Assembly (NCBI GenBank): GCA_021791795.1 | Contig: JAJYVX010000007.1 | Coordinates: 1 to 41,975 of the forward strand | Length of the DNA stretch: 41,975 nucleotides | Source: Actinomycetes bacterium | Lineage (GTDB): Bacteria > Actinomycetota > Acidimicrobiia > Acidimicrobiales > Bog-793 | Reading direction: 5' to 3' | Shown here: positions 14,819 to 41,312 of the stretch, piece after piece | Numbering within the stretch: the first letter of the stretch is position 1 | Layout: the number at the start of each line of letters is the position of its first letter | Notes under the pieces: generated by a model | The model's input: only the letters and a program-made list of their open reading frames with translations | What the model was told of the DNA's origin: nothing | The model's database searches: none | Made by a program: the position numbers and the translations under genes

Positions 14819-15739
14819 TCAGCCGACGCGGCGCTCGAGGAAGTCTCTGATCACACCGAGGTAGGCGTCGGCCTCCTTCTCGAGGATGACGAAGTGGCTC
14901 GACTGGCCGAACACGACGAACTCGGTGTCCGGGATGCCGTCGGCGAGCGGCCGGCTGCAGCGCTTGGCCGACAGCTCGTCGTACCAGCCGCAGAGGACGA
15001 GAGCCGGCACCCGGACTTCGCCGAGCCGGTCGGAGATGTCGTAGAAGGCCTGCGGTCCGGTGCCGCGGAACTCGTGCGGCCCCCACAGTGCGTAGGCCGG
15101 GCCTGTCTTCTCGAGGTATGGACCGACGACTTCCTCGAACTCGCGGCGGGACCGCGCCGGCTGGTACGGCGTGGCCCTGCGCAGGTGCCGCGAGTTCAGC
15201 TCGAGCACGGCCGCCTGGTACCCGGGGTCGTCGAGGTTGTCCTCGTACTCGCATTTGAGCATGTGAGCATGCGTGTCCGCCCCGAGGGCCATCCGATACT
15301 CGGATACGTCGAGGAGGTAGTGCTTCCCGCTCGCATAGGTGTTCGAGAGGACGAGCGCGTTGACGTTGCTCGGATGGCCCAGCGTGTAGGCGAGAGAGAG
15401 CATCCCGCCCCAGGACTGCCCGTAGAGCGTCACGGTGCCGAGATCGAGCGTCGTTCGCACCGTCTCGACTTCGTCGATGAATCGCTGGATCTGCCAGATC
15501 GAAGGGTCGTCCGGCCAATCCGAGTCGCCACTCCCGAGCTGGTCGTAGAGGACGACCTTGCGGTCCTGCTCCGCGACGACCTCGTTCAGCCGGGTGAGGT
15601 AGCTGCTCGGCATGCCCGGTCCGCCGTGCAGCGCGAGCAACGTCTCGGTCCCTGATCCGTAGACCCAGTAGGCGATCTCGAAGTCGCGCTCCACCTTGAT
15701 GCGACCCTGGTCCGTGAGCGGCGCAGCTGTTCTGTTCAT
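14819..15739 (-). CDS. Proline iminopeptidase-family alpha/beta hydrolase
   Basis: Cytosolic serine hydrolase of peptidase family S33, which removes N-terminal proline from peptides; relatives act on amides. The 306-aa product has the oxyanion motif HGGPG (38-42), the nucleophile elbow GQSWGG (S109), a late Asp (CGWYDELS) and a catalytic His (QSSHFVI), so the triad is complete. The ATG at 15739 lies 28 nt beyond the ABC ATPase stop on the same strand. It is therefore probably the last gene of the importer operon and would process an imported peptide or amide. Proline specificity is not proven. Confidence 0.87.
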   Translation of the reverse strand: MNRTAAPLTDQGRIKVERDFEIAYWVYGSGTETLLALHGGPGMPSSYLTRLNEVVAEQDRKVVLYDQLGSGDSDWPDDPSIWQIQRFIDEVETVRTTLDLGTVTLYGQSWGGMLSLAYTLGHPSNVNALVLSNTYASGKHYLLDVSEYRMALGADTHAHMLKCEYEDNLDDPGYQAAVLELNSRHLRRATPYQPARSRREFEEVVGPYLEKTGPAYALWGPHEFRGTGPQAFYDISDRLGEVRVPALVLCGWYDELSAKRCSRPLADGIPDTEFVVFGQSSHFVILEKEADAYLGVIRDFLERRVG

Positions 15740-15767
15740 GGGAAGAGTCTCGCGTGAAGAACCGGCC

Positions 15768-17922
<2,155 letters not shown>

Positions 17923-17930
<8 letters not shown>

Positions 17931-18867
17931 CGATGAAAGCCAACTTCCGTCTGAAGATGCGCCGCGGGATGCGCTGCTGTGGGTCGAGCACGTCGCGCAT
18001 CGTCTCGCCGAGGACCGTGAACGACGTGGCCAGGATGACAAGGCCGATGATCGGGCCGACGATCTCCCAGGGGGAGGTGCCGATGTTCGTGAACCCGTCG
18101 GCGAGGATGACACCCCAGTCAGGAGTCGGTGCCTCCACTCCGACGCCGAGGAAGGCGAGCCCGGCTTCAATGACGATCGCGCTCGGTATGTCCATCGCCA
18201 CTATCACGAAGAGGGGCGGCGCCACGTTGGGGAGTATGTGCCTGAGAAGGACCCGCAGGCGTGAGGCGCCGAGCGACCGCTCCGCCTTCACGTACTGGTT
18301 CTTGCGCTCCGACAGCGTCTGGGCGCGGATGAGGCGGGCGTAGTAGGGCATGAGCGAGATGCCGATGACGAAGGCGACGCTCTCTATCGAGCCGCCGAGC
18401 AGGGAGAGAAGGGCCAAGCCGAGGATGACCGCCGGAAAGGAGATCAAAGCGTCGAAGACGACGATGAGCACCTTGTCGACGGGGCCGCCGAGGTAGCCGG
18501 CGACGAGGCCGAGCACCGAGCCGACGAGGAACGCACCGAGCACCGCGGGCAGTGCGACCTCGAAGGCGACCTGGCTGCCGTAGAGGACCCTCGACAGGTT
18601 GTCGCGCCCGAGGGCGTCGGTCCCGAGGAGGTGCTGCGCCGACGGGCCCGTCAAGGTGTGGAGGACGTCTATGGAGTTCGGGCCGTAGGGCGCCAGCGTC
18701 GGTGCAAAGATGGCCGTGAGGAGAAGCAGCAGGATCATGCCTGCGGACGCGGCGCCGGCAGGACGGCGGGTCACGTCGCGGAGGAAGCCGAGGACTCCGC
18801 GGGGCTGGTACTCGCTCCCGGTGGCGCTCTCGCCGAGAAGGACCTGCTGGGTCGCCTGGACGGACAC
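17923..18867 (-). CDS. ABC transporter permease, DppC/OppC type
   Basis: Inner-membrane channel subunit of the importer, 314 aa. It has an N-terminal cytoplasmic arm, a first membrane segment ([22 protein letters not shown]), then [21 protein letters not shown], which is a DppC hallmark. Four to five more hydrophobic segments follow. The ATPase-coupling EAA-type loop is [21 protein letters not shown]. The end of the gene overlaps the ATPase start by 8 bp, and it starts 9 bp after the DppB-type permease. Substrate depends on the binding protein and is unknown. Confidence 0.93.
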
Positions 18868-18876
18868 GGAGGGCTC

Positions 18877-19833
18877 CTAGATGAACACGTCTGCGCGCTC
18901 TTCGAGGCGCAGGCGCGGGTCGAGGAACCGATACGCGATGTCGGCAAGGAGGTTGCCGACGATGAAAGCGGCCGCGTAGATGAGGACCGCTGCCCGCACC
19001 ACCGGCCAGTCGCGATTCGTGATCGCCGACACCGCGAGGCTCCCGAGACCGCTCCGCTCGAAGATGTACTCGACATAGACGGTCCCGGCGAGGATGTAGC
19101 CGATCATGAGGCCGGTCAACGCCGTCACCGGTACCAAGGCGTTCTTCAGCACGACCCGGTACCGGATCGCCCGCTCGTGGAGGCCGTATGCGCGCGAGGT
19201 TCGCACGAACGGTTGACCGAGGGCTTCGAGCATGCTCGAGCGGACGAGTCGCGCCAGGTACGCCCACCAGAAGGCAGCAAGCGACACAGCAGGTAGGACG
19301 AGTGCCTTGATGTACCCGCCGACACCGCCGGGGATACCGAGCGCCGGGAAGAAGTGGTGGTTGACCGCGAAGAGGAGAAGCAGCAGCAGACCGACCACGT
19401 AAGGCGGCGTAGAGAGGAGCAGGATCGACGCGCCGCGCACGATGGCGTCCGCGATGCCGCCTTGGCGCACGGCCGCGAGAATCCCGATCGGGATGCCGAC
19501 CGCCAGTGAGAGGACGAAGCTGACGAGCGCGAGAACGAGGGTGTTCACGAGGGGCGAGCCGAGCTCCGATGCGACAGGGGTGCTCGTGAAGGGGTCGATG
19601 CCGAAGCTGCCGTGGACGGCGCCCCACATGAAGTTCCATACCTGCGCGTAGACGGGAGTGTCGAGACCCATGTCGCGTCGTATGAGGGCGATCGTCTGAG
19701 GCGTCGCGTGGGGCCCGAGGATGATGCGCGCCGGGTCGCCTGGCACGAGGTGGACGAGCAGCCCGAGCATGACCATGATCACCGCGATGACGATGACCGA
19801 CACACCCAGCCGCTTCACGACATAGAGAACCAT
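18877..19833 (-). CDS. ABC transporter permease, DppB/OppB type
   Basis: Partner membrane subunit of the importer, 318 aa. The first helix MVLYVVKRLGVSVIVIAVIM is followed by the DppB signature LVHLVPGDPARIILG and a periplasmic domain. Further membrane segments include LVLALVSFVLSLAVGIPIGILAAV. The EAA-type loop reads TSRAYGLHERAIRYRVVLKNALVPV. The ATG at 19833 has GGAG just upstream. A 7-bp hairpin (19846-19871) separates it from the binding-protein gene, which would allow unequal expression. Confidence 0.93.
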   Translation of the reverse strand: MVLYVVKRLGVSVIVIAVIMVMLGLLVHLVPGDPARIILGPHATPQTIALIRRDMGLDTPVYAQVWNFMWGAVHGSFGIDPFTSTPVASELGSPLVNTLVLALVSFVLSLAVGIPIGILAAVRQGGIADAIVRGASILLLSTPPYVVGLLLLLLFAVNHHFFPALGIPGGVGGYIKALVLPAVSLAAFWWAYLARLVRSSMLEALGQPFVRTSRAYGLHERAIRYRVVLKNALVPVTALTGLMIGYILAGTVYVEYIFERSGLGSLAVSAITNRDWPVVRAAVLIYAAAFIVGNLLADIAYRFLDPRLRLEERADVFI

Positions 19834-19915: not shown

Positions 19916-21640
19916 TCAGGTGCGGTAGCAGTAGTGGAGCAACGGGTTGGCGTTCCGGTCGAAGACACCGACGAGGTTCGACTTGCTGGCCGAGAAGTTG
20001 ACCGCCACGCTGACCCAGATGTAGGAGACAGCCTCGTCGACCAGCTGCTGCATCTGGATCGCGATAGCGTCACGCTCCGCGAGGTTCGAGGTCTGCCCGA
20101 GCTTCGTGAGCAGGCTCGAGTACTGCGGGTTGCACCAGGAGGCGTAGTTCCAGATCCCGATCTGGTTGCACTGGAACCACTCGAATTGGTAATAGGGGTC
20201 CGGCGCGCCGCCGTAGTAGGTCCACGTCATCTCGCCGAAGCCCGCCTTGGCCACATAGCTGTTCGGCGGGTTCTGGATGATGTTCACCGAGATTCCGACG
20301 TCCTTCAGGTTCGACTGGATGACCTGCATGACGTTGAGCGGCTCGCCCGGCGTCTCGGCCAGAAGAGGCGCCGCGATGGACAGGGTCAGGTTCGTGGCAC
20401 CGGCTGCCGTGAGGAGGGCCTTGGCCCTGCTGACGTCACGCTGGTAGACGGGCGCCCCGGCCCAGTAACCGACGCCGAGCTGCTTCGAGATGAGCGACGG
20501 GAGCCTGGTCGACAGGGAGAGCTTGTTCGCCTCGATGATCTCGGGGATGTCGAGCGCGTACCGGATGGCCTCCCGCACCCTCACGTCCTTCAGGTTCGTG
20601 TTCTGGACGTCGAGCGAGATGAAGTAGTAGTCGAGGGGTGCGAGCGGGGAGTAGGTCGTGAAGGCGCTGTTCCCGCTCAGGCGCTGGACGTCGAGCTGTC
20701 CGAGGTTGGGGGTGAAGTCGACGTCCCCGGACTGGAGCGGGACCGTGAGCGCCTCGCCCTTCGGTACGGCGTTGATCGGTACGTCCTTGATCACGATCTC
20801 GTCGAACCAGTTCTTCGCGCCGAGGGCCACGTTGGCACCGCTGTAGCCGGAGAACTTGTTGAGCACCATCTGCTGCCCGGGCGTGTAGCTCGCGACCTCG
20901 TAGGGGCCGGTGCCGACGGGGTTGTGCGCCCACGACGCGCCGTAGCGCTCGACCGCCTTCTGCGGGAAGATGTAGCCGCTCGTGGTCCACGGGAGCGTCA
21001 TCGTCTCGAAGGGGACGAAAGGCTCCTTGAAGATGGCGGTGCAGGTGTACTTGCCGGTGACCTTCACCTCCTCGAGACCCGAGAAGTCGCCCGCGTAATA
21101 AGAGACCGCGCTCTTCGGCGCTCCCGGGTAGAGCTTCTGGATCCCTGCGTTGCGCTCCCAGGAGTACTTGACGTCGGCAGCCGTCAGCTCTCCGAAATTG
21201 TGGTGGAACTCGACGCCCTGCTTGAGGGTGAAGTTGTAGCGCCTGCCATCGGTGCTCTTCTCGATCGAGTCGGCGAGCAGGTTCTGTGCCGGAGAAGTGG
21301 GTGACTGCGTCGGGTTGTATGCCGTCATGCCCTCGTAGATCGACGGGAACGGCGGGTTCGGGAAGTCGAAGTTGTTCGTCGCCGGGTCGTAGTTCTCACC
21401 GTCGGCGAAGGGCCCGTAGACGAGGGTGCCACCCTTCTTGGCAGCCGGCGGCGGCACGGAGCTCGACCCCGGGCTGGCGCCGCTCGAGCCGCAGGCAGCG
21501 AGGAAGGCCCCCGCAGCGCTGGCCGACACCCCGAGCGCAGCCGCCCGCTGGAGGAACTGCCGGCGATTGACCTTTGCGCGGAGGTAATCCGCGGCAAGCA
21601 TGTCGAGCTCCCGCTCCTTCTGCGGGTGAGCTGAGTCCAT
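19916..21640 (-). CDS. ABC transporter substrate-binding lipoprotein (SBP_bac_5, peptide/nickel type)
   Basis: Extracytoplasmic receptor of the importer, 574 aa. The N-terminus has a Tat-like twin arginine (NRRQFLQ, R26-R27), a hydrophobic stretch, and a lipobox LAAC ending in Cys50. This predicts a folded, lipid-anchored protein. A Gly/Ser/Pro-rich linker leads into the family-5 fold: KKGGTLVYGPFADGENYDPATNN, FTLKQGVEFHHNFGELTAADVKYSWER, NPVGTGPYEVASY, and VREAIRYALDIPEIIEAN. The ATG at 21640 has GGGGGGAG just upstream. It is the first gene of the importer operon. Next to a DmdA-like/amidohydrolase operon, its ligand may be an amide or a methylated compound (inference). Confidence 0.94.
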   Translation of the reverse strand: MDSAHPQKERELDMLAADYLRAKVNRRQFLQRAAALGVSASAAGAFLAACGSSGASPGSSSVPPPAAKKGGTLVYGPFADGENYDPATNNFDFPNPPFPSIYEGMTAYNPTQSPTSPAQNLLADSIEKSTDGRRYNFTLKQGVEFHHNFGELTAADVKYSWERNAGIQKLYPGAPKSAVSYYAGDFSGLEEVKVTGKYTCTAIFKEPFVPFETMTLPWTTSGYIFPQKAVERYGASWAHNPVGTGPYEVASYTPGQQMVLNKFSGYSGANVALGAKNWFDEIVIKDVPINAVPKGEALTVPLQSGDVDFTPNLGQLDVQRLSGNSAFTTYSPLAPLDYYFISLDVQNTNLKDVRVREAIRYALDIPEIIEANKLSLSTRLPSLISKQLGVGYWAGAPVYQRDVSRAKALLTAAGATNLTLSIAAPLLAETPGEPLNVMQVIQSNLKDVGISVNIIQNPPNSYVAKAGFGEMTWTYYGGAPDPYYQFEWFQCNQIGIWNYASWCNPQYSSLLTKLGQTSNLAERDAIAIQMQQLVDEAVSYIWVSVAVNFSASKSNLVGVFDRNANPLLHYCYRT

Positions 21641-21863: not shown

Positions 21864-22235
21864 TCAGGCGAGCAACGGCCGGGTGTCGAAGTACTCCGCC
21901 AACCTGCTGATCCGTCCACCCGACAGCTCGACGACCATGGCGAAGGGGAAGTCCATGACGCCGTCGGGATCGAGCTCGGCGACGAACCGTCCCTCGGCGA
22001 CGGCGACGTCTCCATCCCCGAGCACGTGCCGCAGCTCGATACGGCACGTGCGCAGCTGCGCCATGGCGGCTCTGTTCCCCTCGAGGATCGCACCGGACCC
22101 TGCGAGACGGCTCGACTTGAGCGGATCGTCGAAGATCCCGTCCCGGGTGAACAAGGCTGCCAGAGCGACCGGATCCAGCTCCTCCCAGGCTCGGCAGACA
22201 GCTCGCACGGCCTCGAGGGCACTCATCCCCGTCAC
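21864..22235 (-). CDS. SnoaL-like / NTF2-fold protein
   Basis: Small alpha+beta-barrel protein of 123 aa of the SnoaL/limonene-epoxide-hydrolase type. Members include isomerases, cyclases, hydrolases and non-catalytic proteins. The pattern fits: helix ALEAVRAVCRAWEELDPVALAALFTRDGIFDDP, then strands ending DFPFAMVVELSGGRISRLAEYFDT. The GTG at 22235 overlaps the DmdA-like stop by GTGA; an ATG at 22226 is the alternative. It is the last gene of the SDR/amidohydrolase/DmdA-like operon, so it probably acts on an intermediate of that pathway. Which reaction cannot be told. Confidence 0.8.
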   Translation of the reverse strand: MTGMSALEAVRAVCRAWEELDPVALAALFTRDGIFDDPLKSSRLAGSGAILEGNRAAMAQLRTCRIELRHVLGDGDVAVAEGRFVAELDPDGVMDFPFAMVVELSGGRISRLAEYFDTRPLLA

Positions 22236-23332
22236 GAGACGAACGGCAGCGACGTGACGGTCGCCTTCGCCGCCCCGCCGGGGTAGCTGATGACTACGTC
22301 GTCGCCCTCGCTGACCGACGCAGAGAGGAGGGCGATGGCAGCCGGGTGCTCCAGCGCGAACGAGTACGCCGTCCAGAGCACGCTCCCCACCTCCTCCGCG
22401 CCGGCAAGCACGGGCCAGTACTCCTCAAGCACCGGGAGGTCCTCGTCGGCGAGGAGACCGACGCTGTGGCGTCGCTGCCCGAGGCTCGAAGACGCCCGCA
22501 GCGCGTCCTCTCCGACGAAGGGACCGTGGTCGAGATCGACGAGGCGCCCTCGGCCGGCCTCGTAGGCGTCCATGCCGCAGTTCACGAAGTAGTGGGTGTC
22601 GGTGATCCCGTGCTCGAGGGCTCTAGAGAGGTTGGGGCCGGTGACCATGAGATCGTAGGGGCCACCTGCCTCGCGGAGGGCTCGCCACACGTCGGCTGCC
22701 CGACCGCTGTCGAGCGGGAACACCTCGTAGCCGTGCTCGCCACTCCAACCCGTCCGCGAGACGATGCAGGGCACCCCGGCGATCTCGACGGGCGCACAGC
22801 GGTAGTACTTGAGCAAGGCGGCCTCCGGTGCCACCTCGCGCATGACATCGGACGATCGCGGGCCCTGCAGCTGCATAGGCGCCACGTCCGGGTCGCGAAC
22901 TTCGACGTCGTAGCGCGACCCGGCTGCGAGCCCCCTCGCCCAGAGCTCGAGGTCGACATCGCCGTGCGATATCCAGACCGTGTCCTCGAACGGCATCAAC
23001 ACGATCGGCTCGGTCATCACGAGCCCGTCATCGTCGCATACGAGCGTGTACCTGCACGCGCCGACCGCCAGGTCGGAGAGGTCACGCGTGCAGAGGTAGT
23101 CGGCAAAGGCCGACGCGTCCGGTCCCCGGAGCTCCGTCTGCCGCTCGGCGCCGACGTCCCACAGCGTCACCCCCGCCGTGAGCGCGCGGTACTCCTCCCG
23201 CGGATCGCGTCCGTAGCCGATCGGCATGTACATGTGGTTGTAGGTCATGTACAGCTCTGCGCCCTCCCGTTCGGTCAGCTCGAAGTAGGGCGACCGTCTC
23301 ACGTTGGGGAACAGAGCCTGCCGCCTAGGCAT
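22232..23332 (-). CDS. GcvT-family THF-dependent demethylase, DmdA-like
   Basis: Probable methyltransferase that moves a methyl or one-carbon group from a small substrate to tetrahydrofolate. The 366-aa product resembles dimethylsulfoniopropionate demethylase DmdA more than glycine cleavage T protein, from recall of family sequence: YMTYNHMYMPIGYG, EEYRALTAGVTLWDVGAERQ, CTRDLSDLAVG, MQLQGPRSSDVM, RTGWSGEHGYEVF and the ending TSLPFV. The ATG at 23332 forms an 8-bp ATGCCTAG overlap with the amidohydrolase; an ATG at 23344 and a GTG at 23365 are alternatives. With SDR, amidohydrolase and SnoaL neighbours rather than DMSP genes, the true substrate may be another S-, N- or O-methyl compound. Confidence 0.78.
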   Translation of the reverse strand: MPRRQALFPNVRRSPYFELTEREGAELYMTYNHMYMPIGYGRDPREEYRALTAGVTLWDVGAERQTELRGPDASAFADYLCTRDLSDLAVGACRYTLVCDDDGLVMTEPIVLMPFEDTVWISHGDVDLELWARGLAAGSRYDVEVRDPDVAPMQLQGPRSSDVMREVAPEAALLKYYRCAPVEIAGVPCIVSRTGWSGEHGYEVFPLDSGRAADVWRALREAGGPYDLMVTGPNLSRALEHGITDTHYFVNCGMDAYEAGRGRLVDLDHGPFVGEDALRASSSLGQRRHSVGLLADEDLPVLEEYWPVLAGAEEVGSVLWTAYSFALEHPAAIALLSASVSEGDDVVISYPGGAAKATVTSLPFVS

Positions 23333-24899
23333 CTTCCTGCCCATCTGCTCGCGCTCTGCGGACACTTGCCTGCCACTCCTCCTGCCAGGCGGCGCCCGCG
23401 AGCCACCGGCCCTCGTCACCGACCCACCGGTTGACCCCGACGTGCTCGGCCGCGCACCTCCGGTACACGGCGTCGAACATCGGCGCAAGCCTTTGCGCCC
23501 ATCCTGCCGCCGGCTGCAGCGCCTCCATCCACTCCCCGATGAGATCGGCCACCTCGGCCCGGAGAGCCGTCTCGTCAAGAGTCGTCACCCGACCGTCGCG
23601 CACCACCACGCGTCCGTCGACGAGGACGGTGCGCACCGACCGGCCGTCCTCTCCGTAGACCAGCTGGTTGAGGGCGTTCGTGAGCGGGACGAAGGTGTCC
23701 GAGTCGAGCGCGTAGAGCGCGATGTCGGCCCGGTTCCCCGCGGCGAGCTGTCCCACGTCATCGAGCTGGAGCGCTCGGGCGCCTGTGAGCGTCATCGCTT
23801 CGAGGATCTCCTCGGGGGCCGGCCACGCCCGGTGGTCAGGGTGGTCGAGAGTGTGCAGGGTCGCCGCGAGCTGGCCGACGCGCCACAGGCTGCACTGCTC
23901 CTCGCACGTCGCCTCGTCGGTGCAGAGAGCGACCGGCACCCCGGCTCTCCTCGCCGACCTGAACGGGAACATCCCGCTCCCGCAGCGCAGGTTGCCGCTC
24001 GGCGAGTGGACGACCGTGGCGCCGGCCTCCGACAGGTCCGCGAGGTCGGCTTCGTCGACCCAGACGGCATGCACCACGACCGAGAGCTCGTCGAGCACTC
24101 CGAGCGAGCGAAGGTGGCCGACGGCGGACCCGCCGTACAGCTGGTTCGCGGCTACGCGTTGCAGCTTCGACTCGTAGACGTGGACGTTGAAGGCGAGCTC
24201 GTGCTCGCGAGCAAGCGCGTGGAGGGCGACCATGTAGTCGTCGGTCGAGCGTTGCGGCGCCGAGCAGGAGACGGCGCAGCGCAGACGGCCGTCCGCCTTG
24301 CCGTGCCACCGCTCGACGAACTTGCGGCACATGGCGAGGATCTCTTCAGCAGAGGGTGGCGCCTCTTGGTTCATGCGAGCGAGGACGTCGGCGGGCAGGA
24401 GGTCGCGAAGGTGCGGGTACCAGTCGTACTCGAGCTTGTTCGGTTGGTAAGGAGCCACGGTGGCCCGCAAGCCGAGCTCCTCGTAGGCACCCATCACGGC
24501 TTCGAGCGCCTCGAGATCGGCCTCCGGGTACACGATCAGGTCGTCCATCACGGTGGTGATGCCCGACCGCAGCATCCTGCAGCCGGAGAGGAGGGCCTGC
24601 GACCGGTAGATCTCGGGCCGGAACGGGCCGAAGTCGAAAGGGGGCAGTTCGTAGAGCATGAACAGCTCGAGCGGGAGCACGCCTATGAGGCCCCGGTTGA
24701 ACGTGCCCGACGAGTGGAAGTGCGCGTTCACGAGCCCGGGCAACGCGATCATGCCGCTCCCGTCGACGCCCGGCTCGGGGTCCAGGCAGGTTCCCGCCGG
24801 CCTTATGGCGGCGATCCGGCCTTCGGCGATGGAGATGTCGACCGGCTCGCTCAGCCCTCGTCGCGACAAAGGATCGAGCAGGTGGACTCCGCGGATCAC
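23325..24899 (-). CDS. Metal-dependent amidohydrolase (TrzA/AtzA/cytosine-deaminase-like)
   Basis: Hydrolyses a C-N bond in a ring or amide, often deaminating heterocycles. The 524-aa product has the first metal motif LPGLVNAHFHSSG (H60 and H62), a His in NVHVYES, a His in VVHAVWVDEADL, and an Asp in CTDEATCEEQ. That is the usual mononuclear set of the SsnA/TrzA subgroup. The GTG at 24899 makes a GTGA overlap with the SDR stop and has GGGAG 7-8 nt upstream. The extra 100 or so C-terminal residues (EWMEALQPAAGWAQRLAP onward) look operon-specific. It overlaps the DmdA-like gene by 8 bp, so translation is coupled. Substrate unknown. Confidence 0.85.
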   Translation of the reverse strand: MIRGVHLLDPLSRRGLSEPVDISIAEGRIAAIRPAGTCLDPEPGVDGSGMIALPGLVNAHFHSSGTFNRGLIGVLPLELFMLYELPPFDFGPFRPEIYRSQALLSGCRMLRSGITTVMDDLIVYPEADLEALEAVMGAYEELGLRATVAPYQPNKLEYDWYPHLRDLLPADVLARMNQEAPPSAEEILAMCRKFVERWHGKADGRLRCAVSCSAPQRSTDDYMVALHALAREHELAFNVHVYESKLQRVAANQLYGGSAVGHLRSLGVLDELSVVVHAVWVDEADLADLSEAGATVVHSPSGNLRCGSGMFPFRSARRAGVPVALCTDEATCEEQCSLWRVGQLAATLHTLDHPDHRAWPAPEEILEAMTLTGARALQLDDVGQLAAGNRADIALYALDSDTFVPLTNALNQLVYGEDGRSVRTVLVDGRVVVRDGRVTTLDETALRAEVADLIGEWMEALQPAAGWAQRLAPMFDAVYRRCAAEHVGVNRWVGDEGRWLAGAAWQEEWQASVRRARADGQEDA

Positions 24900-25663
24900 C
24901 ACAGGCTCCCGAGGGCGACCCTGATCGCCTCCCCGTTCACCCCGCTCAGGGCATCGCTCGCGAGGAGGCCGATCACGTCGGCGACCTCTTGCACTGTGAC
25001 GATCCGGCCGCCCGGCGATGCGGCCGCCCGCTCCTCCCATATCTGCTCGGCGGGCACGCCGCGCTCGTGCGACTCCCGCGCCGCCGTCAACTCACCCATC
25101 TCCGTCCGCACCCAGCCCGGGCAGACGGCGTTGCAGGTGACCCCGCATCCGGCCACGTCCTGCGCGATGGCGCGCATGAGGCCGATCATGCCGTGCTTTG
25201 ATGTCGTGTAGGCCGAGAGACTCCGTCCCCCGGCGAGGCCTGCGGTCGAGGCGACCATCACTATGCGGCCCCATCCGCGCGCAACCATGCCGCCCGCCAC
25301 GAGCCGGCTCAGGTGGAATGGTCCGCTCAGGTTCGTCGCCATCACGGCTTCCCAGAGCTCAGGCGACTGCTTCCAGATGAGCTGCTCCTCTCCGCTGTCG
25401 ATGCCGGCGTTGTTCACGAGCACGTCGATCTCGCCGAGGCGCTCTTCGGTCTCGGCGACGATCCGCCCGCATCCCTCCGGGGTCGCGACCGACTCCACGA
25501 GGTAGTTCTCGAGGTCCCTCAGTGTCGCCTCCGTGCGACCGACGCCCATGACCGCATGGCCCTCGGCGGCAAGGGCCTCCGCCGCGGCACGCCCGATGCC
25601 GGTCCCCGCTCCGGTGACGAGCGCGACACGCCGGGCGCCGTCTCGCGTACTTGCCGGTCGCAC
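24896..25663 (-). CDS. Short-chain dehydrogenase/reductase
   Basis: NAD(P)-dependent oxidoreductase of the classical SDR family, 255 aa. It has the coenzyme loop TGAGTGIG, VLVNNAGID, catalytic Ser (VASTAGLAGG) and YTTSK (Tyr and Lys), then NAVCPGWVRTEMGE. The GTG at 25663 is favoured because the frame upstream lacks family sequence. It has little 5' leader room if the promoter is near 25670. It is the first gene of the four-gene operon with amidohydrolase, DmdA-like and SnoaL-like genes, and diverges from the molybdenum hydroxylase with a 41-bp gap. It probably oxidises an alcohol intermediate of that pathway. Confidence 0.87.
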   Translation of the reverse strand: MRPASTRDGARRVALVTGAGTGIGRAAAEALAAEGHAVMGVGRTEATLRDLENYLVESVATPEGCGRIVAETEERLGEIDVLVNNAGIDSGEEQLIWKQSPELWEAVMATNLSGPFHLSRLVAGGMVARGWGRIVMVASTAGLAGGRSLSAYTTSKHGMIGLMRAIAQDVAGCGVTCNAVCPGWVRTEMGELTAARESHERGVPAEQIWEERAAASPGGRIVTVQEVADVIGLLASDALSGVNGEAIRVALGSLW

Positions 25664-25680
25664 CGCCCATAAACTATGCA
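25651..25680 (+). promoter_or_regulatory. Predicted promoter for the molybdenum hydroxylase gene
   Basis: TTGCCG (25651-25656), 18-bp spacer, TATGCA (25675-25680), 25 bp before the GTG at 25705. The -10 lies within a CATAAACTATGC motif (25668-25679) that recurs upstream of the Rieske gene. Matches are modest. Confidence 0.35.
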
Positions 25681-25704
25681 ACTCGGCCAGTGGGCGCTGA
25701 ACGA

Positions 25705-28101
25705 GTGAGCGTTGACGGGGATCCCCGCTCCATCCCCCTGCTGTCGTCACGGCGGCTCGTGTCCGGCGCGGGCGAGTTCGTGGCCAACCTGGAGGCTCCC
25801 CGTTGCCTCCACGCCGTCTTCGCGAGAAGCGACATGGCGCACGCGCGCCTCGTGTCGTTCGACTTCACGAACGCGCTGGCGCAGGAGGGCGTCGTCGCCG
25901 TCCTCCGCCTGTCCGATCTCGAGAAGTCGGGCATCGGCCGCCTCCCGGTCGGCTGGGTGCTCCCCGGCCAACGAGCATCCGACAACGACGTCCTCGCCCG
26001 CGACAAGGTCCGCTACGTGGGCGAGCCGGTCGCTGTGGTGCTCGCCGAGACTGCCGACGCGGCCGAGGACGCGGCTCCGCTCGTCGAGGTGACCTACGAC
26101 CGCCTTCCTGCGGTCGTGGACGCCGAGCAGGCCCTCTCGCCCGGCGCGGCGCTCCTCCACGAGGACTGGGGCGACAACGTGCTCGCTCGCGCCACGGTCG
26201 GAAGAGGCGACTGCGACGCAGCCTTCAAGTCGGCCGCGGTGACTGTGCGCGACACCTTCCGGCTGGCCCGGACGGCATGCGCCCCGCTCGAGACCTGCGG
26301 GGCACTCGCGAGTTACGACCCGTTCCGCGACGAGGTCACCCTCGTCTCGTCGACCCAGTCTCCCCACCATGTGCGCACGGACCTCGCGGCCTGCCTCGGC
26401 CGCCCGGAAGCAAGCATCCGGGTCGTGGCCCGCGACGTCGGCGGGAGCTTCGGCGCGAAGGACCATGCCTTGGCCGAAGAGGCGGTCGTCTGCCTTCTCG
26501 CCGTGGCCTTCGGCCGGCCCGTCCGCTGGAGCGAGGAGCGCCGGGACCACCTTGCGACGACCGGGCACAGCCGGGAGCAGATCCTCGACGTCGAGCTGGC
26601 AGCGGACACCGACGGACACATCGTGGGGCTTCGGGGCCGCCTTCTCCTCGACGTCGGTGCGTACAGCGGAACCCATGGCATGGGTACGGCCGTCTACACG
26701 CTGACTCTCTTGCCCGGCCCGTACCGGATCCGGAATTACGAGCTCGAGGCCGTAGGTGTGATGACGAACAAAGCACCGACCGGCGCGTACCGCGGCTACG
26801 GCGCACCCGAGGCATGCTTCGTGATCGAAGGGCTCGTCGACCGTTTGGCGCACCGCCTCTCCGCCGACCCGCTGGAGATCAGGCGGCGCAACCTCATCAG
26901 TCCCTCCGAGTTCCCGTACTCGAGTGCCGGCGGTCTCACCTACGACGAGTGCGACCTCGCCCGCCTCCTCGAGTGCGCGGCCGACGGAGCCGCTTACGAA
27001 GACCACCGCAAGAGGCGCCGGCCCGGCGAAGGCGTCGGCATCGCCTGCTGCGTCCTCATGGGCGGGTTCGGACCTTCGGAGCTCTCGCTCTCGGCCGGCA
27101 TGAGCTACGGCGGTTACGACTCGGCAAGCGTGCGGATGGACTCGGACGGAAAGGTCCTTCTCTTCACGGGCCTGCCGACCCAGGGGCAGGGTCTCGACAC
27201 AGCTCTCGCGCAGATCTGCGCCCGGGCGCTCGGAATCGACGCCGAGCGGGACGTGAAGGTGGTTGCCGGCGACACCGCCGTGACGCCCTACAGCCCGGTC
27301 GGACCGATAGCCAGCCGCGGGGTCGCCGTCGGCGGCTCGGCCGTGCACCGGGCGAGCGAGCGCGTCGCGGCGATCTTGCAGCTCGCGGCCGCCGAGATGC
27401 TCGAGGCGGCGCCCGAGGACATCGAGATCTCCGGCGGCCGGGCCGCCGTCCGGGGAGTGCCAGACCGGAGCCTCTCGATCGCGTCCGTTGCCCGCGCCGT
27501 GAAACAGGGCAGGTATCAGGAAAAGGGCGTAGAGCCCGGCCTCGAGGCAGCGGCCACGTTCGAGCCGCCCGATCTCACCTATTCCTTCGCCGTCCACATG
27601 GCAAAGGTGCGCGTCGATCCCGGCACGAGAGCCGTCGAGCTGATCGGCTACTGGGCCGCGTGCGACTGCGGCGTCCTCGTCAACCCGAAAGTCGTGGAGG
27701 GCCAGATCATCGGTGGCATCGTGCAGGGCCTCGGGGGCGCCCTCACGGAGGCTCTCTCGTACAGCAGCGAGGGTCAGCTGCTCACGACCACCTTCGTGGA
27801 CTACGGGCTGCTCTCGGCGGCGGAGCTCCCTCCGATCGACGTGACGCTTTTCGAGACGCCCACTCCGCTGACGCCGACGGGGGCTCGCGGCGCCGGCGAG
27901 CTCGGCATCATCGGGCCGGCCGCGGCGGTGGCCAACGCCGTGGCGGACGCGCTCGGGGGAGCCGCTTTCTTCAGCGAGACCCCGATCACGCCCGAGCGGG
28001 TTTGGCAGATGGCTCGATCACGACCTTCCCGAAGCGCTCAGGCGAGGACAGCCGCTCTGAGGCCGCCGGCAGATCCTCCAGACGGAACACGCTGTCGATG
28101 A
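25705..28101 (+). CDS. Xanthine dehydrogenase/CO dehydrogenase-family molybdopterin-binding subunit
   Basis: Catalytic large subunit of a molybdenum hydroxylase, which hydroxylates a carbon next to N or an aldehyde using water. The 798-aa product has DVGGSFGAKDH, the cofactor-site AYRGYGAPEACFVIE, TQGQGLDTALAQI and the late GARGAGELGIIGPA carrying the catalytic Glu. GRPVRWSEERRDHL is also typical. The GTG at 25705 is chosen from family N-termini (RRLVSGAGEFVANL). Oddities: no FAD or 2Fe-2S subunit gene is adjacent, and the last roughly 38 codons run 116 bp into the opposite-strand MDR gene with Arg/Pro-rich sequence unlike the family end. Substrate is unknown; a methylated heterocycle would fit the neighbours. 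Confidence 0.88.
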   Translation: MSVDGDPRSIPLLSSRRLVSGAGEFVANLEAPRCLHAVFARSDMAHARLVSFDFTNALAQEGVVAVLRLSDLEKSGIGRLPVGWVLPGQRASDNDVLARDKVRYVGEPVAVVLAETADAAEDAAPLVEVTYDRLPAVVDAEQALSPGAALLHEDWGDNVLARATVGRGDCDAAFKSAAVTVRDTFRLARTACAPLETCGALASYDPFRDEVTLVSSTQSPHHVRTDLAACLGRPEASIRVVARDVGGSFGAKDHALAEEAVVCLLAVAFGRPVRWSEERRDHLATTGHSREQILDVELAADTDGHIVGLRGRLLLDVGAYSGTHGMGTAVYTLTLLPGPYRIRNYELEAVGVMTNKAPTGAYRGYGAPEACFVIEGLVDRLAHRLSADPLEIRRRNLISPSEFPYSSAGGLTYDECDLARLLECAADGAAYEDHRKRRRPGEGVGIACCVLMGGFGPSELSLSAGMSYGGYDSASVRMDSDGKVLLFTGLPTQGQGLDTALAQICARALGIDAERDVKVVAGDTAVTPYSPVGPIASRGVAVGGSAVHRASERVAAILQLAAAEMLEAAPEDIEISGGRAAVRGVPDRSLSIASVARAVKQGRYQEKGVEPGLEAAATFEPPDLTYSFAVHMAKVRVDPGTRAVELIGYWAACDCGVLVNPKVVEGQIIGGIVQGLGGALTEALSYSSEGQLLTTTFVDYGLLSAAELPPIDVTLFETPTPLTPTGARGAGELGIIGPAAAVANAVADALGGAAFFSETPITPERVWQMARSRPSRSAQARTAALRPPADPPDGTRCR

Positions 28102-34639: not shown

Positions 34640-35628
34640 CGAAGGTGGTCTGCTACGTCGAGCTCGACGCAGACGGCGTCGTCGACGCCTCGGCCCGCGC
34701 GCTCACCTTCGCCCGGGGCATCACGACCCGGCCGACCACGCTCGCCGCGCTGCTCCCGTCCCCACCGACGGCCGAGGCTCTCGGCCAGCTCCAGTCCTTC
34801 GGCGTGTCCGACGTGGCGGTGCTGGAGCACGACGGCATCTCGGGATATTCCCCGACGGCTCTCTCACGCTGCCTCGACGCCATGTCCGGGGAGGAGGACA
34901 CCCTCGCCGTCGTCGCCGCGGCCACCGACCACGGGAACGAGGTGCTGGCCCACCTGGCGGCGACCACCGGCCGCGACTTCGTGGCGGTCTGCACGGCCGC
35001 CCGCGAGGAGGACGGTGGTGGCTTCTCGCTCACGCGACACCGCTGGGGCGGGAGCCTGCTCGAGGACTCCGTCCTCCGAGCACCACGAGCGATCTTCAGC
35101 GTCTCCACCGATGCCGTGCCTCCCGTCCCGGCACCCGCCGCCACGGCGCCGACCACGCGGACCATCCGGCCGGAGCTCTCGGCACAAGAGCTCGCCCTGC
35201 AGGCGGCCGAGTCCCGTCCCGAGAGCTCCGGCGTCGCGCTCGCGAGCGCCAAAGTGGTGGTGAGCGGGGGGAGGGGGGTCGGGGGACCGGAGGGTTTCGC
35301 CGTGATAGAGGAGCTCGCGGCGCTGCTCGGCGGTGCCGTGGGGGTCTCGAGGGTCGTCACGAGCCTCGGGTGGCGGCCCCATCGCGAGCAGGTCGGCCAG
35401 ACCGGGACCAAGGTGACGCCCGACCTCTACCTGGCGTGCGGCATCTCGGGCGCCATCCAGCACCTCGCGGGCTGCCAGAGCGCGAAGCAGATGGTCGCCA
35501 TCAACACCGACCCGGACGCACCCATCATGGCGAGGGCCGACTACGCCGTCATCGGCGACGTGTCAGAAGTCCTCCCCGCGCTCGTCGCCGCCCTCGGCGA
35601 GAGGCGCTCACGCGGCCGCGGCGAGTAG
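34636..35628 (+). CDS. etfA: Electron transfer flavoprotein, alpha subunit
   Basis: FAD-binding large subunit of ETF, 330 aa. The C-terminal half has [48 protein letters not shown] and [17 protein letters not shown], which form the FAD site. The ending [20 protein letters not shown] is diagnostic. The N-terminal half is more divergent, and an Ala/Pro-rich linker (about residues 150-180) joins the two. The GTG at 34636 is in a GTGA overlap with etfB. Its last 21 bp overlap the end of the convergent metF-like gene. Confidence 0.94.
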
Positions 35629-36477
35629 CTGCTGGCGCCAGCGCTCCGTCTGCTCGAGCTGGTTGAAAGTGAAGACGTGCAGCCCGGCGATCCCGGCGGC
35701 CGGGTCCGCGAGGGTGGCCGCGAGCCGTTTGAGCAGCCGCTCGGGCTGGTAGCCGCCCGGCGTCGAGAGACGCGCCACCCAGCTCAGATGTCCCCCGGCG
35801 AAACGCGACGACTCCGCCACCCCGATCTTCCGTGCCACTTCCACGAGGCGGGTGGGCTCGATCGGCCCCGCCATGCCGAGGTAGATGGGCAGGGTGACGC
35901 CGCGGGCACGCACCCGGCGGATCCAGTCGCGCAGCACCGGCGCGCTGAAGCACAGGTTGGAGACGATGTAGTCGGCGTACAGCCTCTTGTCCCACATCGA
36001 CTGGATCGTGACGTCGTCGGTGATCTGGGGGTGCGTCTGCGGGTAGCCCGTGATGCCCACACGGAAGCGTTGCTCGAGCTCGGCGAGCTCGACGATCACA
36101 GGTAGAGCCGCGTCGTAGACCCCGACGGGCGGATCCGCGTCGCCCGCCGGCACGAAGACGTCCTCGATGCCGGCCTCCCTCAGCCTCCCCACCACTTCGC
36201 CGAGGTGCGAGGAGTCGCGAAGGAGGCGGGCCGAGACGTGCGGCACGACCTTGTAGCCGGCCGCGGCGAGCTCGAGGGCGCTCTCGACCGTCACCTCGAT
36301 GCTCTTTCGCGGAGAGGCCGTCACGGTCACCGTGACGTCCTTCGGGACGACCGATGCCACGGTGGCCGCCACCGCCTTGGTGGGCAGCACCTCGTAGCGG
36401 ACCTGGGTCAGAAGCGACGTGACGCTCCGCCCGCCCGAGCCCCTCGTGGCCGGCCAGCCCGTCGGCCATAGCTTCAT
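35608..36477 (-). CDS. Methylenetetrahydrofolate reductase-like protein
   Basis: Probable flavin-dependent interconversion of methyl-THF and methylene-THF. The 289-aa product fits the MetF TIM barrel but is divergent: YEVLPTKAVAATVASVVPKDVTVTVTASPRKSIEVT, VVPHVSARLLRD, IEDVFVPAGDADPP, RVGITGYPQTHP, DYIVSNLCFSAPVLRDWI, and an end strand GLHVFTFNQ. The ATG at 36477 overlaps the DUF1638 stop by ATGA. It ends the iclR-corrinoid operon, where it would oxidise the methyl-THF made by the corrinoid methyltransferase. That is the reverse of its usual role in methionine synthesis (inference). Confidence 0.86.
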   Translation of the reverse strand: MKLWPTGWPATRGSGGRSVTSLLTQVRYEVLPTKAVAATVASVVPKDVTVTVTASPRKSIEVTVESALELAAAGYKVVPHVSARLLRDSSHLGEVVGRLREAGIEDVFVPAGDADPPVGVYDAALPVIVELAELEQRFRVGITGYPQTHPQITDDVTIQSMWDKRLYADYIVSNLCFSAPVLRDWIRRVRARGVTLPIYLGMAGPIEPTRLVEVARKIGVAESSRFAGGHLSWVARLSTPGGYQPERLLKRLAATLADPAAGIAGLHVFTFNQLEQTERWRQQLLAAAA

Positions 36478-37088
36478 GCCAGCACCTGGTCCTTCTTCCG
36501 TATCAAAGATACGAGCGCGTCGCCCACCCGGCTCCCGGGAACCTTGCGGACGACCAGGTCGAGGCGGAGGAATTGCGCCACGAAACGGGCTTCGTCGAGA
36601 AGCTCCTCACCGGCGCTCGTCGTCAGCCAGACGATCCTGCGGTAGTTGCCGAAGTAGTCAACCACCAGCTCGGGGTGCCGGTCGAGCCCGAGCTCGGCGA
36701 TGACGAGCCGGCGGAAGGAGCGCAAGAGGAAGTCCGTCAGCAGGTACGTGCCGGGCTCCTCCTCCATGAGCGAGGAGACCCCGCGCTCTCCTGCGAGGAT
36801 GTCGTAGCAGTGGAGACCCGGCAGGCGCTCGAGGCCGAGACGCCCGCAGACCTCGTCGAGCGCGCCGTAGGTCCCGCAGTCGGCGTACGCGACGAGCACC
36901 GTCTTGGCCTCGGCGCGGAGCCGGCGGGCGAGCTCCTCCACCCGGGGGGCGATCTCCGAGGGGCGGTTGTGCAGGAGCGCCGAGAGGCTGTGCACCTCGA
37001 CCGGACGCCCGAGGCCTGCCGCGGCTATGCGGACGTCGGCTGCGAGAGCTCCGCAGGCGACGACGGCGAGCGGCGCGGCCGCCGGCAC
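36474..37088 (-). CDS. DUF1638 protein in corrinoid demethylation operon
   Basis: A 204-aa protein of unknown function. It begins VVACGALAADVRIAAAGLGRPVEV, a pattern of the DUF1638 family, then has LVAYADCGTYGALDEVCGRLGL and LHCYDILAGERG. The conserved-looking Cys and His residues in those two motifs could bind a metal or cofactor, though this is speculation. The GTG at 37088 is preferred; the adjacent TTG at 37091 is possible, and neither has a good ribosome site. It lies between the RACo-type reactivase (19-nt gap) and the metF-like gene (ATGA overlap). DUF1638 genes are known to accompany MttB-type methyltransferases, so a helper role in corrinoid methyl transfer is likely but undefined. 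Confidence 0.82.
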   Translation of the reverse strand: MPAAAPLAVVACGALAADVRIAAAGLGRPVEVHSLSALLHNRPSEIAPRVEELARRLRAEAKTVLVAYADCGTYGALDEVCGRLGLERLPGLHCYDILAGERGVSSLMEEEPGTYLLTDFLLRSFRRLVIAELGLDRHPELVVDYFGNYRRIVWLTTSAGEELLDEARFVAQFLRLDLVVRKVPGSRVGDALVSLIRKKDQVLA

Positions 37089-37107
37089 CAAGCGCAGCCG
37101 GGCTGCC

Positions 37108-38952
37108 TCAGACGGGGAAGGAGAGGCGATCGACGAAGCGGTCGTTGAAGTCCGGTCGATCGGAGAGCTCGACGTAGTTCACCTCCTCGAGCAGGGCGAC
37201 CGCCCCGGCCCGCTCCCGCACGCTCAACAGTGCCATCTTCGCCCCCTCGCCGGCCACGTTGCCGGCGCTCACGACGCGAAGGACGGGCAGCTCGGGAACG
37301 AGACCGAGCCGGACCGCGCTCGCCGGCGAGAGGTAGCTGCCGAACGACCCGGCGAGAAGCACCTGCTTCACATCCTCGACGGCGACACCGGCGTCCTCGA
37401 GCAGGAGGGTCCAACCGGTGGCTATGGCGGCCTTGGCGAACTGGAGCTCACGCACGTCGCGCTGTGACAGGTAGATGGAGCGCTCCACGTCGCCCGGCTC
37501 CCGCAGCCAGTGCAGCACGAACACCCGCTCCTCACCGACCGTCGTGAGCCGATAAGCCAGCTCCGGGGCCAGATCTCTCGCCGCCTCCTCGGTGACGAAA
37601 CGCCCCGATGCTTCGATGAACCCGAGCGACACCAGCTCCGCCACGGCGTCCACCAGCCCCGAACCGCACAGACCCTTCGGCTCGGCCTCGCCGATCACCT
37701 GGAGGGCGAGGTCCTCGGGCGTCATCTTCACTGCCTCGATCGCGCCCTTTGCGGCGCGCATGCCGCAGCGGATCGACGCTCCCTCGAAAGCTGGACCGGC
37801 GGGCGCTGCCGTCACGAGGAGGCCCGCGTCGGAGCTGAGCACTATCTCGCAATTCGTCCCGATGTCGATGAAGAGCCGCGTGCGCTGGTCGCGGTCCATA
37901 CCTGCGGCGAGCAGGCCGGCTGTGATGTCGCCGCCGACGTAGGCGCCGAAGGCCGGGAACACGACGGCCCGGGCGCGGGGGTGCACCTTCACGCCGAGGT
38001 CGCTCGCGAGCAGCTCGGGGAAGGCCCGGGTCGTGAGCACGAAGGGCGCGACGCCGAGAGGTTCGGGGTCGATGCCGAGCGCGATGTGGGTCATGGTGGC
38101 GTTGCCCGCCACGGCTATCTCGTAGACCTCCCGCGGCTCCACGCCGGCCTCCTCGCAGACGGCCGCCGTGAGCTCGTCGAGGGTTTCGTGCGCATGGGTC
38201 GTCAGCCGGCCGAGAGCGGTCGGATCGAGCATGATCGTGCTGATCCGCGATATGACGTCGGCGCCCGATTGCTGCTGGCGGTTGAGCATCGACTGCACGG
38301 CGAGCGGCGTGCCCGTCGCGAGGTCGAGGATGGTCGCGACCACCGTCGTCGTGCCGAGGTCGTACGCGATGCCGAAGAGCCGCTCCGAGGTGTCCCCCGG
38401 CTCGACGGCGACGAGCACGTCGTCGACGACGACTGCCGTCACCTTGTAGTCGGCCGCCCTGAGCGCCGGCCCGATGGCCCGGAGGGCGAACAGGTCGGTG
38501 CGCAGCTCGAGGTCGTCCATCGCGTCGAGCAGCCGCTCGAGATCCGCCCGCTGGTCCTTCAGGGTCGGCTCGCTGAGCTCGACGAACCGCTTCTGGACCG
38601 CCGGCCGGAGGATCACCTTGCGGCCGACACCGACGGTGGCCGCCTTCGGTCTCGTCGTGAGCGGCGGGACGTCGACTCTGAGGTCCCCGCGTGCCTCGAC
38701 CCGGCAGGCGAGCCGCCAGCCCTCGCGCAGGTCTTCGGTGTGGAAGGCCCGCGTGTCGAGGCTCGTGACCGGGGCATCACCCTCGAGCACTCTCACCTTG
38801 CACTTCTTGCACGTGCCGTGCCCGCCGCAGGTGGAGTCGATGGCGATGCCGTTCCAGCTGGCGGCATCGAAGAGCGTGACTCCCACGGGCACGCGCACCT
38901 GCCGACCGCTCGGCTCGAAGACGAGGTCCGCCCGCTCGTTCGAAGGGGTCAT
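37108..38952 (-). CDS. Corrinoid activation protein (RACo-like, 2Fe-2S plus ASKHA DUF4445)
   Basis: ATP-dependent reductive activator that returns inactive Co(II) corrinoid to Co(I). The 614-aa product has an N-terminal plant-type 2Fe-2S ferredoxin domain: C42-x5-C48-x2-C51 (CGGHGTCKKC) and C83 (RLACR). A linker follows, then an actin-like ATPase domain from about residue 200 (AYDLGTTTVVATILDLATG, FIDIGTNCEIVL, GSGLVDAVAELVSLGFI, LLAGSFGSYLSPASAVRLGL). The ATG at 38952 overlaps the methyltransferase stop by ATGA. Its position directly after the corrinoid protein and MtgA-like gene makes reactivation of this corrinoid protein nearly certain. Confidence 0.93.
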   Translation of the reverse strand: MTPSNERADLVFEPSGRQVRVPVGVTLFDAASWNGIAIDSTCGGHGTCKKCKVRVLEGDAPVTSLDTRAFHTEDLREGWRLACRVEARGDLRVDVPPLTTRPKAATVGVGRKVILRPAVQKRFVELSEPTLKDQRADLERLLDAMDDLELRTDLFALRAIGPALRAADYKVTAVVVDDVLVAVEPGDTSERLFGIAYDLGTTTVVATILDLATGTPLAVQSMLNRQQQSGADVISRISTIMLDPTALGRLTTHAHETLDELTAAVCEEAGVEPREVYEIAVAGNATMTHIALGIDPEPLGVAPFVLTTRAFPELLASDLGVKVHPRARAVVFPAFGAYVGGDITAGLLAAGMDRDQRTRLFIDIGTNCEIVLSSDAGLLVTAAPAGPAFEGASIRCGMRAAKGAIEAVKMTPEDLALQVIGEAEPKGLCGSGLVDAVAELVSLGFIEASGRFVTEEAARDLAPELAYRLTTVGEERVFVLHWLREPGDVERSIYLSQRDVRELQFAKAAIATGWTLLLEDAGVAVEDVKQVLLAGSFGSYLSPASAVRLGLVPELPVLRVVSAGNVAGEGAKMALLSVRERAGAVALLEEVNYVELSDRPDFNDRFVDRLSFPV

Positions 38953-39812: not shown

Positions 39813-39842
39813 TTGGGGCTCCTTCTGTACGCGCCGTTCCCG

Positions 39843-41281: not shown

Positions 41282-41304
41282 GTTACGGAACTCTGTTCTA
41301 CGAT
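41276..41304 (+). promoter_or_regulatory. Predicted promoter of mttB-like gene
   Basis: TTCCAT (41276-41281), 17-bp spacer, TACGAT (41299-41304). Initiation 7-9 bp downstream falls on the ATG at 41313, which has no ribosome site. A leaderless mRNA is therefore predicted. On the other strand TTGTGA (41323-41318) and TAGAAC (41300-41295) with 16 bp between could serve iclR. Confidence 0.45.
41287..41299. promoter_or_regulatory. Putative IclR operator
   Basis: GGAAC-TCT-GTTCT (4 of 5 arm positions symmetric), with the geometry of IclR-type boxes such as TGGAA-N5-TTCCA. It overlaps both predicted -10 elements. GTTCC-ATGTTAC-GGAAC (41275-41291) shares the left GGAAC and could be a second, alternative site. 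Confidence 0.5.
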
Positions 41305-41312
41305 GCGAGTCA

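Follow-up and report, generated by a model that had tools for sequence, protein, structure and literature searches.

DmdA is known for the demethylation of DMSP, and DmdA-like genes are often used as markers of DMSP cycling. The dmdA gene is not always clustered with dmdB, dmdC and dmdD. Demethylases that depend on tetrahydrofolate (THF) are also known outside DmdA, and these have O-methyl or methylenedioxy substrates (PMC5547118, PMC9404685). For DmdA-like proteins that do not act on DMSP, the "non-DmdA" clades of PMC7487153 serve as comparison. The stretch of DNA analyzed here, 41,975 nucleotides long and referred to as the window, contains a DmdA-like gene that overlaps an amidohydrolase gene and a gene for a small SnoaL-like protein. 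Its product belongs to a DmdA-like clade that is new within an already known enzyme superfamily. Below, we describe the genes of this block, the placement of the DmdA-like protein and its active-site residues, and the occurrence of its partners in other genomes.

The four-gene block and its surroundings

All four genes of the block are on the minus strand. The first (24896..25663; GTG start, TGA at 24898-24896) encodes an SDR oxidoreductase of 255 aa (adh_short, 163 bits). It is followed by the gene for a 524 aa amidohydrolase (AH) of the ATZ/TRZ (deaminase/chlorohydrolase) superfamily (23325..24899; GTG start; Amidohydro_1, 154 bits) and by the gene encoding the DmdA/GcvT-like methyltransferase, a putative THF-dependent demethylase of 366 aa (22232..23332; ATG start; GCV_T, 126 bits, and GCV_T_C, 41.5 bits). 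The last gene (21864..22235; GTG start) encodes a small protein of 120-123 aa resembling SnoaL and ketosteroid isomerase (KSI), which have the NTF2 fold (SnoaL_2, 54.7 bits against a cut-off of 27). The Pfam matches of all four proteins are above the curated cut-offs. SDR and AH genes overlap by 4 bp, AH and DmdA-like genes by 8 bp, and DmdA-like and SnoaL genes by 4 bp. The gene identities and overlaps that the initial annotation had given for positions 25663-21864 are thus confirmed by the sequence and by Pfam. We infer that the four genes are co-transcribed. The orthologues of the DmdA-like protein begin alike (...FPNVRRSPYF). For the SnoaL gene, an alternative ATG at 22226 fits the orthologues better, and would leave a gap of 5 bp to the DmdA-like gene instead of an overlap. 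Most open reading frames of the block and the importer region show a strong third-position GC bias, as in real genes.

An ABC importer and a peptidase-like hydrolase had been proposed to follow on the same strand, and both are indeed present. The importer is of the Dpp type. Its first gene, located 223 bp beyond the SnoaL gene, encodes a DppA-like family 5 solute-binding lipoprotein (19916..21640; SBP_bac_5, 194 bits), and is followed by genes for a DppB-type permease (18877..19833; BPD_transp_1), a DppC-type permease (17923..18867; BPD_transp_1 and OppC_N) and a fused DppD-DppF ATPase (15768..17930; two ABC_tran and oligo_HPY stretches). Next, also on the minus strand, is a gene encoding an alpha/beta hydrolase of the proline iminopeptidase family (14822..15835; TIGR01250, 199.7 bits against a cut-off of 167.65), which is a candidate for the first hydrolytic step of the pathway discussed below. 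No terminator-like site was found in the gap between the SnoaL and DppA genes, and no signal in the scans for promoters and terminators exceeded the chance level.

Divergent from the SDR gene, on the plus strand, is a gene for a CoxL/XdhA-like molybdenum hydroxylase large subunit (25651..28101), whose NCBIfam kin are aerobic CODH and XdhA models, all below cut-off. Its true start is probably near 25705, and it is a possible member of the same pathway as the four-gene block. A gene for a medium or small subunit was not recognized beside it within the window.

A point absent from the initial annotation is the wealth of methylated-amine and C1 genes in the window. The choline dehydrogenase BetA and Fhs both score over their NCBIfam cut-offs, and there are also genes for an ALDH, a GbcA-like Rieske oxygenase, a DMGDH-like protein, ETF and a corrinoid MttB system. 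The latter is part of a corrinoid methyl-transfer set at 35608-41975, consisting of an MttB-family gene truncated by the end of the window and genes for a corrinoid protein, a methyl-THF:corrinoid methyltransferase, a RACo/AcsV-like activator, a DUF1638 protein, MTHFR and an IclR regulator; in this genome it coexists with the oxygen-dependent Rieske and DMGDH genes. In two other loci (L054 and L056), DmdA-like genes adjoin a choline dehydrogenase gene whose product is 67-68% identical to the BetA of the window.

Family placement and active-site residues of the DmdA-like protein

The NCBIfam model that best matches the DmdA-like protein is DmdA (NF009133), with a score of 215 bits that does not reach the cut-off of 410. 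Both GcvT models are missed as well (TIGR00528, 84.8 bits against 235.85; NF001567, 126.9 against 300), and so are the models for LigM (27.8 bits against 580) and DesA (47.3 against 800). The nearest PDB entry by sequence is DmdA of P. ubique (3tfh; E=2.9e-43). A contig scan with the DmdA-like protein gave no relative, and its closest kin came from a wider genome search. The draft genome to which the window belongs (3.45 Mb) has 11 GCV_T matches. The same genome has a second, ordinary DmdA-like gene (L055:3749-4906, G000:C1), the product of which shows 37% identity; it adjoins a GroES-like gene.

After a quick tree, a maximum-likelihood tree of 91 rows was constructed. As DMSP references we used five sequences: those of P. 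inhibens (L198), Marivivens (L199), Antarctobacter (L196) and Marinovum (L197), and the 3tfh stretch. The first four are from plasmid records, of which L198 and L199 have dmdB/C/D-type neighbours and L196 and L197 are annotated as DMSP demethylase. In this tree, the DmdA-like protein clusters with proteins of the genomes G1071, G1005, G1037 and G727 (51-59% identity) in a five-member clade supported at 100/99. These relatives share only the phylum with the genome of the window and are thus from another class. The five DMSP references are split from the query clade and the outgroup at 100/97, in a group that may include other DmdA-like rows. The GcvT/DMGDH rows stand apart (100/99). In the quick tree, C114, another protein of the same genome as the window, groups with the GcvT of T. 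maritima.

To number the residues as in P. ubique, we aligned the 3tfh stretch; the roles of the residues were taken from PMC5395565 and PMC7487153. The residue table covered a clade of six (the five tree members and the protein of G1107), 79 other DmdA-like rows and seven outgroup rows. Arg239 is present in 79/79 of the other DmdA-like rows and in 7/7 outgroup rows, but all six clade members have Ala at this position. Asp250, likewise found in 79/79 other DmdA-like rows, is lost in the clade, and the whole clade has also lost Asn107, which is nearly invariant elsewhere. Trp197 is kept in 6/6 members. Of the folate-site positions 108 (an acid), Glu204 and Tyr206, Glu204 is likewise kept in 6/6, position 108 is Glu or Asp, and position 206 is Phe, Tyr or Leu. 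The SKQGG motif, present in 5/5 DMSP references, is missing from the clade, and the query has SGEHG instead. PMC7487153 names W171, E178 and Y180 in the numbering of its own alignment; judged by their spacing, these probably equate to W197, E204 and Y206 of P. ubique. The joint loss of Arg239 and Asp250 suggests that these two residues interact. Because both are lost, the active site of the clade may differ, and its use of THF is uncertain.

Hence, the DmdA-like protein is found neither inside true DmdA, since it forms a clade of its own, lacks SKQGG and scores far under the DmdA cut-off, nor inside GcvT, given its scores against the GcvT models and its position outside the GcvT/DMGDH rows. 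These were the two placements that would have spoken against the initial annotation, whose suggestion of a substrate other than DMSP is now well supported by the tree, the missing motif and the score. We conclude that the protein is almost certainly a non-DMSP, non-GcvT enzyme. By the tests run it is not LigM either. It may work like DmdA.

The partner genes in other genomes

In the four closest genomes, i.e. those of the window, G1005 (L207), G1071 (L206) and G1107 (L215), a SnoaL gene adjoins the DmdA-like gene; the SnoaL homologues of the latter three are 48-52% identical to that of the window. The position of the SnoaL gene varies: it is located downstream on the same strand in the window, upstream on the same strand in G1005, and divergently in G1071 and G1107. 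Three different arrangements of the same neighbours argue for a functional link. A SnoaL protein of this family is absent from the whole genomes of the clade members G1037 and G727, and none was detected near other DmdA-like genes in about 40 loci, nearly all of them outside the clade. More distant SnoaL homologues (40-44%) are encoded in G984 and G1043, where the gene directly following is for an FMO-like flavoprotein and not for a DmdA-like protein (L222:8371-9990 and L223:83-1702), so SnoaL proteins of this family also have partners other than DmdA-like enzymes.

Asp37 of the SnoaL-like protein is invariant in the alignment, and the position of KSI Asp38 appears to correspond to it. Alignment by eye places no Tyr at the position of the catalytic Tyr of KSI in this family. 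We also considered limonene epoxide hydrolase activity and rejected it, as the active-site Arg of that enzyme aligns to no conserved residue. A fold search with the SnoaL model, which is of mediocre quality (pLDDT 76, single sequence), returned many NTF2-fold matches with TM scores of about 0.4-0.57 and no informative favourite; KSI-like folds matched weakly.

The other half of the block was also found in G1071. On its contig L232, separate from the DmdA-like locus, an SDR gene (56%) is directly upstream of an AH gene (58%), in the order and on the strand seen in the window. Together with the SnoaL and DmdA-like genes on L206, G1071 therefore has close counterparts of all four genes. The SDR-AH locus of G1071 and the SnoaL-DmdA-like locus of G1005 have in common an S15 alpha/beta hydrolase (58.5% identical). 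After the SnoaL gene, G1071 has another SDR gene and then a gene read as a CoxM-type subunit, and in G727 the DmdA-like gene is immediately upstream of its own DppA-C-B-D-F set. Overall, the contexts of the clade loci look catabolic and uptake-linked. In G1005, two 2OG-Fe(II) oxygenase genes, one of them HalD-like, are located between the DmdA-like gene and the S15 hydrolase and importer genes (L207:12018-13699).

The same four-gene order was not found outside the window; what recurs elsewhere are its two halves, SDR with AH and DmdA-like with SnoaL, as separate pairs. G1071, G1107 and G1005 independently support the idea that the four genes act together, and we consider it very probable that their products belong to one pathway. 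A further SDR gene, in L209, overlaps a DmdA-like gene and encodes a protein 53% identical to the SDR of the window; this pair is near HpaB-like and FAH-like genes, recognized by eye from their translations.

The metal and active-site pattern HxH, HxxE, H, D can be read off the AH sequence, and H240, E243, H277 and D328 are invariant in the alignment. The best NCBIfam kin of AH are N-ethylammeline chlorohydrolase, 5'-deoxyadenosine deaminase and 8-oxoguanine deaminase, although every equivalog cut-off was missed. A tree made before the G1071 orthologue was known showed the AH of the window as a lone deep branch beside a wider AH family, which we sampled at 80 loci in named genomes. Genes for DppB and DppC are present at 33 of these loci, for a PuuE-like polysaccharide deacetylase at 33, for an Asp/Glu/hydantoin racemase at 29, and for SIS and PfkB proteins at 19 each; a nucleoside hydrolase neighbour was seen once, in S. 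meliloti. The sole NCBIfam match of a PuuE-like representative is allantoinase PuuE, below cut-off. These neighbours hint at an N-heterocycle, a nucleobase or a ureide as the substrate of AH. The usual partners SIS, PfkB, racemase and PuuE are missing from the window, and the substrate of its AH may therefore differ from that of the family.

Among the loci L116-L195 (e.g., L155, L159, L187 and L188), a recurrent cluster combines genes for a SIS protein, a PfkB kinase, an Asp/Glu racemase, an amidohydrolase, a PuuE-like protein and a Dpp importer. It is present in Mycobacteriaceae, Microbacteriaceae and some Proteobacteria, and the models used name no substrate for it. An AH of this kind is very rare, also when the order, the class or the family of the window is considered, and a DmdA-like gene was found near AH-family relatives at 0/80 loci; this rarity and the 0/80 result rule out that DmdA-like enzymes generally travel with AH.

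A possible pathway and comparison with known systems

Taking these data together, our preferred reading, which we hold to be about as likely as not, is that the block forms an operon for the breakdown of a methylated compound other than DMSP that is taken up from outside and whose methyl group is passed to THF. In such a pathway, the Dpp-type importer would bring the compound into the cell, where the alpha/beta hydrolase may trim it. The DmdA-like enzyme would then strip the methyl group and transfer it to THF, so that the carbon would join the C1 pool served by the Fhs and MTHFR encoded in the window. The SnoaL-like protein would have this substrate or the product of its demethylation as target, with Asp37 perhaps serving in an isomerase or lyase reaction, the SDR would oxidize an alcohol, and AH, judged by its family context, would hydrolyze or deaminate an N-heterocyclic or ureide-like group. 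THF-dependent demethylation is the likely activity of the DmdA-like enzyme, because of its superfamily (PMC5395565, PMC5547118, PMC9404685) and the retained W197, D/E108 and E204; the lost Arg239 and Asp250 are the chief ground for doubt. As to the substrate, an N-methylated N-heterocycle is the likeliest class, and we put it forward tentatively as the leading guess because relatives of AH are found in ureide/N-heterocycle-type clusters. The earlier suggestion that an N-methyl heterocycle is opened by hydrolysis has thus received circumstantial support, from the PuuE/allantoinase-like, racemase and nucleoside hydrolase neighbours of the AH family and from the molybdenum hydroxylase genes nearby. 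A published pathway with the set of SDR, AH, DmdA-like and SnoaL genes was not found in the literature within our scope, outside which most subscription papers fell; for a homarine-type pathway, which was also considered, the literature search gave nothing useful.

Several other explanations have to be weighed against this catabolic operon. A THF-dependent O-demethylase that acts on methoxylated compounds (aromatic or alicyclic) in the manner of LigM, DesA or dicamba demethylase, and whose ring products are handled by AH, SDR and SnoaL, would agree with the O-methyl and methylenedioxy substrates of the THF-dependent demethylases known outside DmdA, and with the HpaB-like and FAH-like genes near the SDR and DmdA-like pair of L209. 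We nonetheless consider it unlikely, as the LigM and DesA models are missed by hundreds of bits, no gene for aromatic ring cleavage was recognized close to the block within the window, and the family context of AH indicates N-heterocycles or ureides. The loss of Arg239, Asp250 and Asn107 across the clade, together with the conserved small NTF2-fold partner, could instead indicate a re-purposed GcvT-fold enzyme that does not use THF and has another methyl acceptor, or that catalyzes a hydrolysis or lyase reaction for which SnoaL is an indispensable second component. This is quite unlikely in our judgement: the acid at 108, E204 and W197 are retained in all six members, and the folate-binding roles of R239 and D250 are putative only. 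A further, speculative reading, to which we give a small chance, takes the clade as a methyl-transfer enzyme of two components, DmdA-like plus SnoaL-like, whose active site is rewired without the Arg otherwise universal in the GcvT-superfamily sequences compared, and whose substrate is of a methylated compound class that has no known THF-dependent demethylase.

A divergent demethylase of DMSP, or of another sulfonium compound, would explain why DmdA is the closest match in both NCBIfam and the PDB, and the tryptophan that PMC7487153 reports as a DMSP contact is kept. However, W197 is shared by many of the other DmdA-like proteins, whereas 3/5 DMSP references have Tyr at this position, the protein falls outside the tree group of the five references, and SKQGG is missing. 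In addition, no dmdB-, dmdC- or dmdD-like gene is present among the annotated neighbours in the window, unlike in L198 and L199, a weak test in view of the occasional separation of dmdA from these genes. A DMSP demethylase is therefore very improbable. We attach hardly any weight to the possibility that unrelated genes stand together by chance, or that this is an ordinary glycine-cleavage T protein with its neighbours: codirectional overlapping genes are frequent in compact genomes, but the same pairs are linked independently in G1071, G1107 and G1005, the GcvT models are far under cut-off, and it is C114 of the same genome that groups with T. maritima GcvT.

A well-separated DmdA-like clade whose associations are with other genes rather than with DMSP means that counts of DmdA-like markers can mislead. 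The SDR, AH, DmdA-like, SnoaL and importer genes form a compact, testable set toward a new demethylation pathway, and the clade, as a natural variant of the active site, can be used to ask which residues methyl transfer by the GcvT fold requires.

Compared with known systems, the query shares with DmdA (3tfh; NF009133) the GCV_T plus GCV_T_C architecture, a size of about 370 aa, the top family match, W197, E204 and an acid at 108. It differs in lying outside the DMSP clade without SKQGG, in having lost R239 and D250, and in having SnoaL, SDR and AH partners in place of DMSP genes. With the non-DMSP DmdA-like proteins, which are widespread in the phylum of the window and in Alphaproteobacteria, the query shares a common superclade and 33-44% identity, but in those sampled Arg239 and Asp250 are intact and no SnoaL gene is close by, and the query clade branches separately. 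On roseobacter plasmids (L063:11968-16066 and L064:11971-16118), a DmdA-like gene that does not belong to the DMSP group is found with genes for an Lrp regulator, OsmC, enoyl-CoA hydratase and acyl-CoA synthetase. The C-terminal domain of GcvT/DMGDH has the same fold at about 30% identity or less, yet it forms a separate tree group, its models score the query far under their cut-offs, and no glycine-cleavage genes were recognized near the query. LigM, DesA, the dicamba demethylase Dmt06 and BrdA may resemble it in transferring a methyl or methylene group to THF in catabolism, but they are about 430-475 aa long, compared with 366 aa, and act on aromatic substrates, and the LigM and DesA models score it very low. 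AH shares its superfamily and metal-site pattern with ATZ/TRZ-type amidohydrolases, and differs as a separate deep branch beside the family whose loci carry PuuE-like, racemase and Dpp genes. Finally, the SnoaL-like protein has the SnoaL_2 domain and apparently the KSI Asp38 position, kept as Asp37, in common with SnoaL/KSI-like NTF2-fold proteins, but its sequence match to the solved members is very weak (E 0.027 and above), and it is set apart from them by its coupling to a DmdA-like gene.
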